The notes below the pieces were generated by a model that saw nothing but the letters and a program-made list of their open reading frames with translations, had not been told where the DNA came from and ran no database searches. DNA of 64,000 bases. It comes from Caballeronia glathei. GTDB taxonomy: Bacteria; Pseudomonadota; Gammaproteobacteria; Burkholderiales; Burkholderiaceae. Of the stretch, positions 42,544 to 47,261 are shown piece after piece; position 1 is the stretch's first letter; each line of letters opens with the position of its first letter. Made by a program: the position numbers and the translations under genes. The DNA lies in NCBI RefSeq assembly GCF_000698595.1, contig NZ_JFHC01000001.1:310001-374000 (forward strand), written 5' to 3'.

Positions 42544-43512
42544 TCATAGCACGGCGGCCTGACGCCATTGCGCGACGGCATCGTCGATCGGGGTAAGTCC
42601 GGGCACGTGCGTGACACCGTCCTGAAGCTTGCGGCGCAGCGCCGGACTGCTGCCGCCCACCCAGATCTGCACCTCGGGCGGCAACAGATGGCGCAGTTCG
42701 CCAAGCCCGCTCGCAATGGCCTGCGCCGGCATCACGGCAGTGAATGAGAGCGCGACAATATCCACGTCGTGCGCGGTCACCGCGTTGACGATGTCGTGCA
42801 GCGGCGTCTGCGGCCCGAGCCCGATGCACTCGCACTCCGCGAGCGAGAACATCGCCTCTGCCATCAGGATGCCGAGCCCGTGGCTCTCGCCGCTCAGCGT
42901 GGTGAGCAGCATGCGCGGCTTGCCGCCGCGCCCGCGCAGCGCGTCGGAGAGCGGGCGCAGCAGCGTGCGCAGCGTCACCTGCATCGCCTCGCTGAACAGG
43001 TGCTCGTGGTAGACCTGCAGCGTTCCCGCCGCCCACGCGTTGCCGACCCGCGCGGACAGCGGCGCCGCGACATCGATCACGAAGCGCTCGAGCCCGTCGC
43101 GGGTCGCGCGCTTGAGGAGTTCGAAGCGGAAATCGTCGTAAGCGCCCGCGCGCAGGAGCGCGACGAGGTGATCCAGCTCGGTATCCGGCGCATCCTGCCC
43201 CACGCCCGACGACTCCGCCAGCTGCTGCAACACCTCGATCGACTGGGCGAGCACCTTGCTCGGCCGGTGCCCGGCGTCGAGCAGGCGCTTGACGAGCCTG
43301 AGCTTGGTCACCTGCTCCTGCGGGTAGAGACGCTCGCCGCCCGCCGAGCGTGACGGCTGCGGAAAGCCGTAGCGGCGCTCCCACACGCGCAGCGTATCCT
43401 TCGTGAGGCCGATTTCATGCGCGATCGCGCCAATGCCGATACCCGAGAGCGCGGGTGAAAACGCCTCGTCGTGGCTGGCGGTGCCGGGATTCGACTCTGA
43501 TGGGTTTGTCAT
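42544..43512 (-). CDS. MerR regulator with cobalamin-binding domain (CarH/LitR-like)
   Basis: A 322-residue regulator. The N-terminal MerR HTH (about 25-95) contains IGLTKDTLRVWERRYGFP. The C-terminal part has the B12 cap helix bundle and Rossmann-like fold. Key residues: W160 with E170-H171 nine residues later (W-x9-EH) and E209-x-H211-x-x-G214, the two motifs that define adenosylcobalamin photoreceptors of the CarH family; H211 would bind cobalt. The alanine after W160 replaces the histidine used in Thermus CarH light-state ligation. It lies directly downstream of the ECF sigma operon. Confidence 0.85.
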   Translation of the reverse strand: MTNPSESNPGTASHDEAFSPALSGIGIGAIAHEIGLTKDTLRVWERRYGFPQPSRSAGGERLYPQEQVTKLRLVKRLLDAGHRPSKVLAQSIEVLQQLAESSGVGQDAPDTELDHLVALLRAGAYDDFRFELLKRATRDGLERFVIDVAAPLSARVGNAWAAGTLQVYHEHLFSEAMQVTLRTLLRPLSDALRGRGGKPRMLLTTLSGESHGLGILMAEAMFSLAECECIGLGPQTPLHDIVNAVTAHDVDIVALSFTAVMPAQAIASGLGELRHLLPPEVQIWVGGSSPALRRKLQDGVTHVPGLTPIDDAVAQWRQAAVL

Positions 43513-43644
43513 GGACAAAACGCGAAATTGACCAGGTTGTGCAGCCGGGCAAATCGGGTATGCGTCTTATTTAATACGGAAAAGCGCCCGTACAGGACGT
43601 TTCCATCATAGACGAGATTCTTCCAAGGGTTAGACAAACTTTCG

Positions 43645-43842
43645 TCATTCGTCTGATGAGACGTCGATGGTACGCTGGACCATCGAGCGGCACGCGCGCC
43701 GCAGCAGCTGCAGATCGCGCCGGTAGTTGCGGCAGCCGCTGCAGGTGATCAGATGCAGGCGCAGGCGATTGCGCTCGTGCAGCGTCGGCCGCTCGTCCAT
43801 TTCATCCGACATCAGCCGGGTCGCTTCCTTGCAGTTGAGCAT
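43645..43842 (-). CDS. Small zinc-finger anti-sigma factor
   Basis: A 65-residue protein with the ZAS motif H-x3-C-x2-C in HLITCSGC and the N-terminal CKEATRLMSDEMD typical of zf-HC2 anti-sigma factors. It has no membrane helix, so it should act in the cytoplasm and could sense oxidants through its zinc thiols. The start is ATG 43842, which overlaps the sigma factor stop as TGATG. It is the likely direct partner of the preceding ECF factor. Confidence 0.86.
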   Translation of the reverse strand: MLNCKEATRLMSDEMDERPTLHERNRLRLHLITCSGCRNYRRDLQLLRRACRSMVQRTIDVSSDE

Positions 43843-44426
43843 CACTCACCCTTTTCGTCGAACCAGCGGTTCTGCAGGCACAGCCTCAGCGCCATCTTCG
43901 CGCGATGCAGGATCACGCCGCAATTGGATTTCGTGATGGCGAGCTCGATGCACACGTCGTCGACCGATACGTCGAGGAACTCGCGCATCATGAAAACGCG
44001 CGCGGTCGCGGGCGGCAGGTTGTCGAGGCACACCTGGAACACGGTCCAGAACTGGTTCTGTGCGAGCGTCGCCTCGGGGTCGCCCCACGGCGACGGACGA
44101 TCTTCCTTCTTCCAGTGGCCGTGGTCGGTGAAAAGGGCATCGAAGGCATCCGCCGGGAGCTCGTCCTCGTAGACGCGTGCCGCGGTATTGCGCGCTCGTG
44201 AGCGAAACGTGTCGATGATCTTGTTCTTGAGAATCGCGAAAACCCAGGTACTGAACTGTGCCTGGCCGCGAAATTCACCGATGCGCGCCACCGACGCGAG
44301 CATCGCTTCCTGAACCGCATCCTCGGCTTCGGTGCGATCGCGCAGTTGCAGGATCGCAAAACGCAGCAGCATGTCGCGCAGACGCCCGAGATCGGGATTA
44401 AAGCCGATTGAAGTGAGTTCACTCAT
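43842..44426 (-). CDS. ECF-family RNA polymerase sigma factor
   Basis: A 194-residue sigma-70 family protein with regions 2 and 4 only. Region 2 contains RTEAEDAVQEAMLASVARIGEF and FSTWVFAILKNKIIDTFRS; region 4 ends in VDDVCIELAITKSNCGVILHRAKMALR. It is translationally coupled to the zinc-finger anti-sigma gene and divergent from the cytochrome b561/molybdoenzyme/methionine-rich peptide operon 198 bases away, which is its most likely regulon. Confidence 0.92.
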   Translation of the reverse strand: MSELTSIGFNPDLGRLRDMLLRFAILQLRDRTEAEDAVQEAMLASVARIGEFRGQAQFSTWVFAILKNKIIDTFRSRARNTAARVYEDELPADAFDALFTDHGHWKKEDRPSPWGDPEATLAQNQFWTVFQVCLDNLPPATARVFMMREFLDVSVDDVCIELAITKSNCGVILHRAKMALRLCLQNRWFDEKGE

Positions 44427-44624
44427 GAGAAGACAGCAAGGATTGCTTTACGTCAGCAATTTGAAAGAGCGCCCGGGCAAACGCAACGTTTCGTAACAGG
44501 ACCGTGGGGGCCGAAACCGCCCGCCGATAAGATTCTTTTCCCGACGATGTAATGCGCCGGACCGCCGTGCGACTAAACAGCAACCCATCACGCTGCAGCA
44601 CGATACAGCTTAAAGGAAACGGAA

Positions 44625-45251
44625 ATGACCGCGCAACATTCGCACGACGGCTCGCCCGGACACGCCCGCACCATTCAGCCCATCTGGCTGCGGATTTCGC
44701 ATTGGCTCAATGCGGTGGCCGTGGTTGTGATGATCCTCTCGGGATGGCGCATCTATGATGCGTCGCCCGTGTTCAAGGGCTTCATGATTCCCGTGGGCAT
44801 CACGATGGGCGGCTGGCTCGGCGGCGCGCTGCAATGGCACTTCGCCGCCATGTGGCTGCTGTTCTTCAACGGCATCTTCTATCTGGTGATGAACGCGGTC
44901 ACCGGCCGTTTCGCGCGCAAGTTCCTGCCGCTGTCGCCGCGCGCGGTCCTGAACGATCTGCGGCTCGCGCTCACCGGCCACCTGACGCACGACGATCTCA
45001 GCCGCTACAACGCGGTGCAGAAGCTCGCGTATCTCGTCGCAATCGTGGACCTCGTCGTGCTCGTGCTGTCCGGGCTCGTGATCTGGAAATCCGTGCAGTT
45101 CCCGCTGCTGCGCGAGCTGATGGGCGGCTACGACAGAGCGCGCGTCGTCCACTTCTGCGCGATGGCGCTGATCGTCGGCTTCATCGTCGTGCATGTGGCG
45201 ATGGTCGCGCTCGTGCCGCGCTCGCTGCTCACGATGATTCGCGGACGCTGA
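44625..45251 (+). CDS. Cytochrome b561-type membrane protein (YedZ1-like partner)
   Basis: A diheme cytochrome b of 208 residues with four predicted helices (about 25-45, 70-92, 135-155, 176-197). Candidate heme ligands are H26, H72, H176 and H190. It belongs to the Ni/Fe-hydrogenase/b561 family rather than E. coli MsrQ. It probably passes quinol electrons to the molybdoenzyme encoded 43 bases downstream. AAAGGAAA precedes the ATG. Confidence 0.87.
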   Translation: MTAQHSHDGSPGHARTIQPIWLRISHWLNAVAVVVMILSGWRIYDASPVFKGFMIPVGITMGGWLGGALQWHFAAMWLLFFNGIFYLVMNAVTGRFARKFLPLSPRAVLNDLRLALTGHLTHDDLSRYNAVQKLAYLVAIVDLVVLVLSGLVIWKSVQFPLLRELMGGYDRARVVHFCAMALIVGFIVVHVAMVALVPRSLLTMIRGR

Positions 45252-45294
45252 ACGCCACGCCCGCGCGACAAGACAGTACATCGAGGACCTCACC

Positions 45295-46089
45295 ATGAAA
45301 TTCGACGAACCCGGCCGCAAGGCCAGCCTGATCGCGCCGGAACTCGACCGCGAATTGCTCCTAATCGACGCGCGGCGCGAACTGAAGATGCCTTCGCGGC
45401 GGCTCTTCGGCAAGCAGCTGATATCGCTCGGCGGACTTGCGATGCTGACCGGCTGCAGTCTTTCCGACAACAAGTCGGTCGAGACCTTCCTTGCCCGCGT
45501 ATCGCGCCTGAACGACGGCGTGCAGGGGTGGCTTTTCGACCCGAACCGCCTCGCGCCGACCTACACCCGTGCCGAAATGACACGGCCGTTTCCGTTCAAC
45601 GCGTTCTACGGCGTGGACAAAGCCCCCGTGGTCGACGGCGACGACTTTCGCCTGAAGGTGAGCGGGCTGGTCGCGAGCGGGCGGGCCTGGACGCTGACCG
45701 AGCTCTACGCGCTGCCGCACGCCGAGCAGATCACGCGGCACATCTGCGTGGAAGGCTGGAGCGCGATCGGCCGCTGGGGCGGCACGCCGTTCTCGGAATT
45801 CCTGAAGCGCGTGGGCGCGGATACGAGCGCGAAGTACGTCGGCTTCAAGTGCGCGGACGACTATTACGAAAGCATCGACATGGCGACGGCGCTGCATCCG
45901 CAGACGCTCCTCACCTTCACCTACGACGGCGAAACGCTGCCGGTGAAATACGGATATCCGATGAAGCTGCGGATGCCGACCAAGCTCGGCTACAAGAATC
46001 CGAAGCACGTCATGGAGATTTTTGTCACCAACACGTTCCCCGGCGGCTATTGGGTCGATCAGGGATACAACTGGTTCGGAGGCTCCTGA
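45295..46089 (+). CDS. Tat-exported molybdopterin oxidoreductase (MsrP/YedY-like)
   Basis: A 264-residue sulfite-oxidase-fold protein. The Tat motif SRRLFGK is at 34-40, followed by a hydrophobic stretch and LTGC (51-54), so it may be a Tat lipoprotein. The molybdenum ligand is Cys151 in HICVEGWSAIGRWGG. MsrP-type enzymes reduce methionine sulfoxide in periplasmic proteins. Electrons should come from the cytochrome b encoded upstream. GAGGA precedes the ATG. With the methionine-rich peptide next door, methionine sulfoxide reduction is the favoured activity. Confidence 0.87.
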   Translation: MKFDEPGRKASLIAPELDRELLLIDARRELKMPSRRLFGKQLISLGGLAMLTGCSLSDNKSVETFLARVSRLNDGVQGWLFDPNRLAPTYTRAEMTRPFPFNAFYGVDKAPVVDGDDFRLKVSGLVASGRAWTLTELYALPHAEQITRHICVEGWSAIGRWGGTPFSEFLKRVGADTSAKYVGFKCADDYYESIDMATALHPQTLLTFTYDGETLPVKYGYPMKLRMPTKLGYKNPKHVMEIFVTNTFPGGYWVDQGYNWFGGS

Positions 46090-46170
46090 CGCGCCGAACT
46101 CGATCGACGCGACGGATCTTCGATTCGCCCCGGCTGGACCGGATTGCTTTGATACAAAAACGAGGTTGAA

Positions 46171-46419
46171 ATGAAATTCTTTGTGACCGCAGCAATGGCT
46201 GCAACGCTCGCTCTGACTGGCTCGCTGGCGTTCGCTCAGCAGAGCGGCGCGATGTCCCACGATTCGATGTCGAAGGACGCGATGTCGAAGGACTCGATGT
46301 CGAAAGACGCCATGTCGAAAGACGCCATGTCGAAAGACGCGATGAAAAAGCCGCACGACGGCATGAAGAAGGACGCGATGAGCATGGACCACGCCGCATC
46401 GTCGCCGATGAAGCAGTAA
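46171..46419 (+). CDS. Secreted methionine-rich repeat peptide (MrpX-like)
   Basis: An 82-residue protein: signal peptide 1-22 (cleavage after AFA), then about 60 mature residues with 11 methionines. Residues 33-57 are five successive M-S-K-D-A/S units. There is no cysteine, aromatic residue or recognised fold in the mature part. It resembles methionine-rich peptides that act as sacrificial oxidant sinks. The GAGGTTGAA before the ATG is a good ribosome-binding site. Third gene of the operon after the cytochrome and the MsrP-like enzyme. Confidence 0.8.
   Translation: MKFFVTAAMAATLALTGSLAFAQQSGAMSHDSMSKDAMSKDSMSKDAMSKDAMSKDAMKKPHDGMKKDAMSMDHAASSPMKQ
46267..46341 (+). repeat. Five 15-base tandem repeats encoding MSKDA/S
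   Basis: Five copies of a 15-base unit beginning ATGTCGAA, differing only at a few third positions, starting at 46267, 46282, 46297, 46312 and 46327, with a degenerate sixth. Copy number could change by slippage or recombination. Confidence 0.9.
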
Positions 46420-46425
46420 GGCTTC

Positions 46426-46460
46426 GGAAAGCGCGGCGCGCGCCTCGCGCCGCGCTTTCC
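46426..46460 (+). terminator. Strong hairpin after the methionine-rich peptide gene
   Basis: GGAAAGCGCGGCGCG (46426-46440) pairs perfectly with 46446-46460 across a 5-base loop, 7 bases after the stop. No T-tract. Confidence 0.65.
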
Positions 46461-46526
46461 AGAGGTCGCCTCACCTACCTGCGGACACGGTGGCAGACAC
46501 CGTGGCAGACCCACCGCCAGGCCCGC

Positions 46527-47261
46527 TCACTCGGGCTTTTTCTTCGCCGCCGGCTTTCTCGCAGGGGCCTTCTTCGCGACCGCCGCGCGCTTGGGTTCAC
46601 CCGCCTTTTCCTCCTTCGCACCGCCGGCCGCCCCCTGAGCGGGCGTGGGCGCGACCATTCCGGCAGGTTGCGTCATGGCGAGGCTCGCAAGCTGGTTGAA
46701 CTGCGTCTGAAGCACGTTCCACCAGCCCGAAGGATCGAACGTCACCTCGTTGCCGCTTGCCTCACCCGAGGTCTTCGGCTCCTCGGGCCTGTCCGCAGCC
46801 CGCGCGGGTTCCTCGGCCGCCTTCGGCGCTTCCTTCTGCTCCGGCTTGTTCATCGGCCATCCGGGCGGTGCCTTCGGCTTCTCGGCGGGCGCCTGCGCCT
46901 TCTCCACCGATGTCTGCGCATACGCGCCGAACGCGCGCAGCGTGGCAAGCGTCGCGCGCTGCACCTCGAGCGCCTGGATTGCCGATTGCAGCATGTTCAG
47001 GTTGAGCTTGAGCCATTGCTCGACGGCGCGCATGTCGGTCACGCGCTTGTCGATTTCCTCGATGCTCGCGAGCGGCGCAAGCATGTCCGACATCATCGAC
47101 AGCGACGGTCCCATGCCCTGCGCGCCGCCCGGAATCGCCGCGGCGGCAAACGGATTGAGGCGCATCAGATCCCACATTTTTTCCATCATGTCCTGTTGAG
47201 AAAAGCCGGGAAAGCCGGGGAAACTTCCAAATGGCGGCGTGCCGCCGGGGATATCGGTCAT
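46527..47261 (-). CDS. PhaM-like polyhydroxyalkanoate granule regulatory protein
   Basis: A 244-residue phasin-type protein. The N-terminal part has SQQDMMEKMWDLMRLNPFA, the middle is a helical phasin-like region (about 60-120), then a proline/alanine/glutamate linker, and a basic C-terminal tail AAVAKKAPARKPAAKKKPE similar to the DNA-binding PAKKA tail of Ralstonia PhaM. PhaM activates PHB synthase and attaches granules to the nucleoid. No pha gene is adjacent in the window. Confidence 0.8.
   Translation of the reverse strand: MTDIPGGTPPFGSFPGFPGFSQQDMMEKMWDLMRLNPFAAAAIPGGAQGMGPSLSMMSDMLAPLASIEEIDKRVTDMRAVEQWLKLNLNMLQSAIQALEVQRATLATLRAFGAYAQTSVEKAQAPAEKPKAPPGWPMNKPEQKEAPKAAEEPARAADRPEEPKTSGEASGNEVTFDPSGWWNVLQTQFNQLASLAMTQPAGMVAPTPAQGAAGGAKEEKAGEPKRAAVAKKAPARKPAAKKKPE

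Follow-up and report, generated by a model that had tools for sequence, protein, structure and literature searches.

A 64,000-nucleotide stretch of the Caballeronia glathei genome (contig NZ_JFHC01000001.1, positions 310,001 to 374,000 of the forward strand; hereafter the window, numbered from its first letter) contains a divergent module of five genes, in which an anti-sigma factor and an extracytoplasmic function (ECF) sigma factor are encoded on the minus strand and a cytochrome, a molybdoenzyme and a methionine-rich peptide on the plus strand. A first-pass annotation of this DNA had proposed five adjacent genes acting together as a periplasmic oxidant-scavenging system, and we find all five open reading frames (ORFs) where it placed them, each with a family match; the ECF-type box and the strong hairpin in the list that follows go beyond that annotation.

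43645..43842, minus strand: soluble zinc-binding anti-sigma (ZAS) factor (zf-HC2), 65 residues, with Cys4, His30, Cys34 and Cys37 (profile match and ligand positions)
43842..44426, minus strand: ECF sigma factor of the TIGR02943 family (ORF and profile match)
44548..44575, plus strand: predicted promoter box TGTAAT-N16-CGACTA, 50 bp 5' of the cytochrome start (motif comparison across loci)
44625..45251, plus strand: b561-type membrane cytochrome (PF01292) with conserved His 26, 72, 176 and 190, a predicted quinol electron acceptor
45295..46089, plus strand: MsrP-like molybdoenzyme with a twin-arginine motif, a predicted lipobox Cys54 (45454-45456) and a predicted molybdenum-ligand Cys151 in CVEGW
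46171..46419, plus strand: MXKDX-repeat peptide of 82 residues, predicted to be exported
46426..46460, plus strand: exact 13-bp inverted repeat directly 3' of the peptide gene (fold energy compared with shuffles)

The peptide is methionine-rich and carries an export signal, as first described: with 11 Met in the 60 residues that remain after the predicted cleavage, it matches TIGR02953 (pentapeptide MXKDX repeat) at 62.4 bits against a curated cut-off of 41 (E 3e-17) and is the sole match of this profile in the genome. Its gene contains a 15-bp tandem repeat in 5.3 copies, which together with the Met count argues that the methionine pattern does not arise by chance. Met makes up 14-21% of the residues (median 17%) in 135 distinct relatives, picked by a repeat criterion, in which the composition is Lys/Asp-rich, the Met-to-Met spacing is mostly five residues (940 of ~1400 intervals) and Cys is absent from all but four (131/135 Cys-free). 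Class-wide, the profile finds matches in 11 of 274 genomes, above the cut-off only in the window's own; some of the matches below it are Met-rich peptides beside a response regulator or the enzyme pair, and others are not.

The molybdoenzyme carries a PF00174 molybdopterin domain and the CxExW active-site motif that it shares with the genome's own MsrP (174 of 175 enzyme rows in the alignment), as well as an RR motif (175/175), so that its description as an MsrP-like, Tat-type enzyme is sustained, though it scores 82 bits against the MsrP equivalog NF003767, below the cut-off of 207. The RR motif is followed by a lipobox (LTGC in the window; pattern present in 172/175), and the enzyme is therefore probably a lipoprotein, anchored at Cys54. 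Its best match in the PDB is 1xdq, an entry titled bacterial sulfite oxidase, which we take to be E. coli YedY/MsrP. Because a canonical MsrP (500 bits to NF003767) and an MsrQ (matching PF01794) are encoded on another contig of the same genome, the module constitutes a second, different system. The cytochrome matches PF01292, lacks the MsrQ domain Ferric_reduct PF01794 and falls outside MsrQ, and its histidines 26, 72, 176 and 190 are conserved in 172/172, 175/175, 174/174 and 174/174 rows, respectively. The b561 assignment made at first pass is thus correct, but the cytochrome is not a peculiarity of this locus, as had been supposed: it goes with the enzyme family and accompanies it in Burkholderia, Cupriavidus, Rahnella and E. 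coli plasmids too.

The anti-sigma factor matches zf-HC2 / NF052368 at 68 bits (cut-off 50) and the sigma factor matches TIGR02943 at 238 bits (cut-off 162), with the anti-sigma ATG at 43842 overlapping the sigma stop codon. In its small size and in the motif C/H-x23-26-H-x3-C-x2-C, the anti-sigma factor is a member of the ZAS group, with ligand positions identical to those of MseR as printed in PMC2893595. This soluble zinc anti-sigma factor, initially noted as a distinctive part of the locus, is indeed special, since the ZAS pair adjoins the module in 3 of the 249 genomes of the family that we surveyed, and also in Caballeronia telluris.

That survey of gene order, which the first-pass annotation had called for, draws on 150 listed enzyme rows and 121 TIGR02953 matches (117 distinct peptide loci), and the association of peptide and enzyme holds across it. 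The enzyme is found in 142 of the 249 genomes (E 1e-30 or better) and the peptide in 108; among the matches listed, 101 of the 121 peptide matches lie less than 5 kb from an enzyme row, all on the same strand. The peptide gene is downstream in 63 of these 101 (50-296 bp) and upstream in 38 (758-1905 bp), separated from the enzyme by the cytochrome gene at the upstream loci that were mapped, and it has switched sides of the enzyme pair at least five times on the enzyme tree. Linkage depends on identity: again among the matches listed, 89 of 97 enzyme rows at 72% or above are linked, 8 of 12 at 66-72%, and 0 of 41 below 66%, and since these last, the paralogue rows, are unlinked, the same genomes hold a built-in control. 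Six of the 20 peptide matches away from listed enzyme rows have an enzyme match within the stretch around the peptide (only fragments in L138), one has a cytochrome at a contig end and 13 have neither. We also examined 80 named loci, part of a longer list and with no Azospira among them, and 60 linked loci that were mapped, picked by genus and side from 97 and overlapping with the named set; the peptide is present in 74 of the 80. Locus L138 itself (genome G047, same genus) is a SigF/NrsF-peptide locus in which short fragments are all that is left of the enzyme gene, and it appears to be a decayed copy.

In a phylum-wide sample of 349 genomes the enzyme family occurs in 35 (E 1e-40), and it is also present in 222 plasmid records (E 1e-30), including 13 from Klebsiella and 12 from Rahnella. 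A paralogous enzyme/cytochrome pair lies on contig C73 of the window genome (64% and 66% identity, respectively). Such pairs (L003 810-2844; L159, L160, L163-L170) are followed by an exported protein of ~230 residues that has no Met repeats and to which Pfam assigns no family, so that a candidate labelling of this partner as DUF5666 was rejected; genes for a response regulator and a kinase often lie ahead of the mapped members, which appear to form a second conserved cassette. In E. coli (L197, L198, L203), the three genes and a two-component pair are found together on IncF plasmids, and a blastn module match is found in 350 of 5426 genomes, at 288 chromosomal and 75 plasmid places. Near-identical plasmid modules (L198 5361-7001, matches H101-H118) vary in length from 1632 to 1686 bases, which would fit gain and loss of repeats in the peptide gene.

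The regulators found beside the module differ. We recognise SigF/NrsF at 20 of the 60 mapped linked loci, a ZAS pair at 2, a two-component pair at 2 and none at 36, and the corresponding numbers for the 80 named loci are 32, 1, 1 and 46. A locus counts as 'none recognised' if tblastn gave no match to NrsF, to the window-type pair or to a response regulator; the figure is an upper limit, because one locus with an annotated DUF1109 gene (L202) and another with a sigma gene (L195) were scored in this way. A search of the whole window genome for NrsF finds a single copy, which adjoins a DoxX-like gene on another contig, and none at the module. That SigF/NrsF pair, the only one in the genome (L296 4164-6536), lies in an apparent operon with the DoxX-like ORF and an ORF that by eye resembles a further ECF sigma factor, and has a SigF-type box upstream. 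Close homologues of the window's sigma/ZAS pair (L211, L213) adjoin what by eye appear to be a radical SAM arsenosugar enzyme and a transporter.

The predicted promoters follow the regulators. A SigF box, GTAAC-N15-19-CGAA, is present on the module strand at 22 of 22 NrsF loci among 92 mapped loci (shuffles predict 0.1), and 19 of these 22 also have a box on the opposite strand, facing sigF; elsewhere the module-strand box occurs at 1 of 54 loci with no recognised regulator and at none of 3 ZAS, 3 two-component or 10 paralogue loci. The named loci give the same picture (31/32 NrsF, 2/46 none recognised, 0/1 ZAS). The window module has neither NrsF nor a box of this kind at the locus, and does not belong to the SigF/NrsF (ECF16) MrpX systems. 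Its own box, TGTAAT-N16-CGACTA, was defined from the window, L071 and L072, with L216 as an independent test; we find it exact at all four ZAS loci, with a quite different spacer in L216, and with at least three mismatches at 51 of 51 NrsF loci, while none of 850 shuffles comes below two mismatches. An extended pattern (TGTAATG, gap 14-16) is found once per genome in three whole genomes, only at the module, and the reversed control pattern gives one match in one of the three. The exact box also precedes a Collimonas module, in a genome with a 46% identical sigma factor, and a box with one mismatch is found at four further regulator-less modules (three of them with a 17-base spacer), of which L086 and L087 (genomes G072 and G233) have a 61% identical sigma factor in trans. 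A scan for sigma-70 promoters finds none at the locus. At the other end of the module, the hairpin 3' of the peptide gene has exact arms, no T run and a folding energy of -40.3 kcal/mol (z -5.5 over 46420-46470), and is a possible transcript end. The module is flanked by genes for a MerR/B12-type regulator (42544-43518, minus strand) and a phaM-type protein (46527-47261, minus strand).

A tree built from 174 enzyme rows (151 distinct sequences; a quick method with a plain model, support by the SH-like approximate likelihood ratio test (SH-aLRT) only, midpoint root for drawing) places the four ZAS rows in a single clade (SH-aLRT 100), nested in a clade of 31 rows (99) in which 23 are NrsF rows and 4 have no recognised regulator. 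The Caballeronia telluris module is split: its enzyme pair adjoins the ZAS pair, and its peptide adjoins SigF/NrsF with a SigF box, with no enzyme beside that second locus within an 11-kb stretch. In L216, the peptide gene is located elsewhere in the genome, away from the enzyme pair. Because the distribution of boxes and the nesting on the tree both fit, it is likely that the ZAS pair and its box replaced SigF/NrsF, in one step or by loss followed by gain. We regard it as an even bet that the cassette is a plug-in part with an exchangeable sensor, in which, in this Caballeronia clade, a zinc-thiol switch and its box supplanted the membrane protein NrsF and its box, such that the trigger would now be cytoplasmic and the periplasmic chemistry unchanged.

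Function has been partly published for relatives of the module, and what is new here is its control, by a ZAS-type regulator and box. In B. cenocepacia, BCAL1105, BCAL1106 and BCAL1107 are induced 12.7-, 8.3- and 3.4-fold in NaOCl and 6.8-, 4.1- and 2.7-fold in H2O2 (PMC2830190), and BCAL1106 and BCAL1107 are induced 90- and 66-fold in cystic-fibrosis sputum, as the most induced pair of that organism (PMC2559838). We identify these genes with the module because the published primers and a tryptic peptide match it. Both printed BCAL1107 quantitative PCR primers (PMC2559838) fit Burkholderia enzyme genes with 0 mismatches and at the printed 377 bp (five stretches from at most three genomes, J2315 not among them), and when up to four mismatches per primer are allowed, each of the 27 fits of the pair gives 377 bp; the tryptic peptide DAMGHDAMAK, reported for residues 37-46 of BCAL1105 (PMC11054960), is found at residue 37 of Burkholderia MXKDX peptides, and BCAL1106 is placed by its name and position. 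The set is the same as in the window, with peptide, b561 cytochrome and molybdoenzyme, but the peptide gene comes first, and the mapped Burkholderia loci are adjoined by thiC and have no recognised adjacent regulator. The names that the cited passages give these genes are exported protein, cytochrome b561 and oxidoreductase, and no others (PMC2830190, PMC2559838, PMC11054960).

The c3566-c3568 operon of uropathogenic E. coli (UPEC) is probably another copy of this module type. It too combines a cytochrome, an MsrP-like enzyme and a Met-rich peptide, but under the two-component regulator OrhK/OrhR; it is induced by peroxide, and deletion of c3566 or c3567 leads to peroxide sensitivity (PMC8550376). 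The chromosomal enzyme of E. coli ATCC 25922, presumably the c3567 orthologue, is 59% identical to that of the window, and the peptide at that locus has two Cys. In this strain's chromosomal module (L203 36-634), the cytochrome gene is annotated as frameshifted and the enzyme and peptide genes as intact. Brucella bcrXQP, controlled by the ECF sigma factor BcrS, likewise pairs an MXKDX peptide with a putative Met sulfoxide reductase and is HOCl-induced and protective; it differs in that the enzymes are called MsrQP homologues, and BcrS is an ECF16 sigma factor with a six-helix membrane anti-sigma, AbcS, whose boxes have the same shape as the SigF boxes of our NrsF module loci (PMC8315932). In Azospira suillum, a periplasmic Met-rich peptide is recycled by a Met sulfoxide reductase in hypochlorite detoxification, as proposed here, but the regulator of yedY1-mrpX is SigF/NrsF (PMC4623255, PMC5748585). 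Haemophilus RpoE2/HrsE and Neisseria sigmaE/MseR resemble the window in their control, in that an ECF sigma factor and a small cytoplasmic ZAS anti-sigma factor control a Met sulfoxide reductase, whereas their target is msrAB, and a Met-rich peptide and a molybdoenzyme are unmentioned in the available portions of these papers (PMC7907618, PMC2893595, PMC3240639); expression of Haemophilus rpoE2 is increased by HOCl and H2O2. A literature search over titles and the starts of abstracts, covering few subscription journals, finds no account of the module in Burkholderiaceae that casts it as a scavenging system or links it to a ZAS regulator.

We therefore read the locus as a periplasmic oxidant-scavenging cassette, consisting of a peptide sink, an MsrP-like reductase and a b561 quinol donor, under a sigma/ZAS pair that likely replaced SigF/NrsF, and we assign this reading a probability of roughly 70%. 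By analogy with the RsrA class, an oxidant that reaches the cytoplasm would oxidise the zinc-ligand Cys of the anti-sigma factor and free the sigma factor, which would then drive transcription from the observed box through cytochrome, enzyme and peptide, in the observed gene order. Homology and linkage suggest that the Met residues of the exported peptide would be sacrificially oxidised by bleach-like oxidants, and that the enzyme, with its predicted Cys54 lipid anchor, would return the resulting Met sulfoxide to Met with electrons passed from quinol through the b561 cytochrome. The first-pass proposal of an oxidant-induced peptide sink with a quinol-fed reductase thus draws support from the conservation of the gene set, the promoter evidence and the published induction and mutants of orthologues. 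What can be read from sequence is the gene set and the conservation of its linkage, the distinct NrsF and ZAS boxes, the placement of the ZAS clade and the match to BCAL1105-1107.

Several observations weigh against this reading. The published induction and mutant phenotypes are those of relatives, and because the UPEC operon is induced by peroxide, an oxidant other than hypochlorite may be the natural trigger. Neisseria msrAB is unresponsive to H2O2, diamide and singlet oxygen (PMC2893595), and a Haemophilus rpoE2 mutant has wild-type oxidant resistance in vitro. Peptide and enzyme do not always occur together: 8 of the 97 close enzyme rows, among the matches listed, have no nearby peptide (G229 is cut by the contig start), and in four of these eight genomes (G051, G130, G106, G114) no TIGR02953 match is found; at loci L133 and L134, the peptide stands beside SigF without a neighbouring enzyme, and genome G016 (L134) has no enzyme match at E 1e-30. 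The paralogous pair in the window genome adjoins an exported protein without Met repeats, which shows that such a pair also exists with no Met-rich peptide at its side. As to control, most of the rows that lie nearest to the ZAS clade on the tree have no recognised regulator, and loss of NrsF may therefore precede gain of the ZAS pair; the best match to the ZAS box 5' of the sigma gene has 4-5 mismatches at all four ZAS loci, and autoregulation is therefore not supported. An AlphaFold model (20 rows) is poor, with a predicted local distance difference test score (pLDDT) of 60, and lends no structural support.

The same enzyme pair could carry out general periplasmic repair of oxidised envelope proteins or small sulfoxides, in which case the peptide would be no more than a co-regulated substrate among others, or a sink of its own. 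Canonical MsrPQ is stated to repair SurA and Pal (PMC8550376), and partners other than a Met-repeat peptide are found beside the paralogous pair and beside the Rhizobium and Methylobacterium pairs that we examined. However, among the matches listed, the peptide is close to the enzyme on either side in 101 of 121 cases, as against 0 of 41 in the paralogue group, and the repeat design, with Met every five residues in 940 of ~1400 intervals, also counts against general repair, which we consider unlikely. Met-rich segments can bind Cu(I), and a peptide bearing both Met and His might bind copper or silver as part of a metal-stress response. Caulobacter SigF does respond to heavy metals (PMC3511200), and a B. 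contaminans plasmid carries the enzyme pair near metal-transport genes; nevertheless, 131 of 135 peptides are Cys-free and Lys/Asp-rich, the partner of the peptide is an MsrP-like reductase, and orthologues are induced by NaOCl, H2O2 or organic peroxide (PMC2830190, PMC8550376), all of which make a role in metal binding very improbable.

The sigma/ZAS pair might also be a chance neighbour of a module that is run by another factor, as would fit a sigma gene with no matching box upstream and the unrelated genes that adjoin close homologues of the pair elsewhere. We judge this to be quite unlikely: the box is exact at 4 of 4 ZAS loci, in L216 with its quite different spacer, and has at least three mismatches at 51 of 51 NrsF loci, and the two modules with a 61% identical sigma factor in trans (L086, L087) keep a one-mismatch box before the module.

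The scavenging cassette proposed here provides a candidate function for BCAL1105-1107, which the available portions of the published accounts assign to no system (PMC2830190, PMC2559838, PMC11054960). Among the methionine-sink systems, a b561-type branch separate from MsrPQ, with a probable lipid anchor, is delimited as well; E. coli plasmids carry it, and its enzyme gene also occurs on Klebsiella plasmids. Finally, the occurrence of one cassette with NrsF, ZAS, two-component or no recognised regulator would permit a clean test of the joint change of sensor and promoter, and of the site at which the oxidant is sensed.

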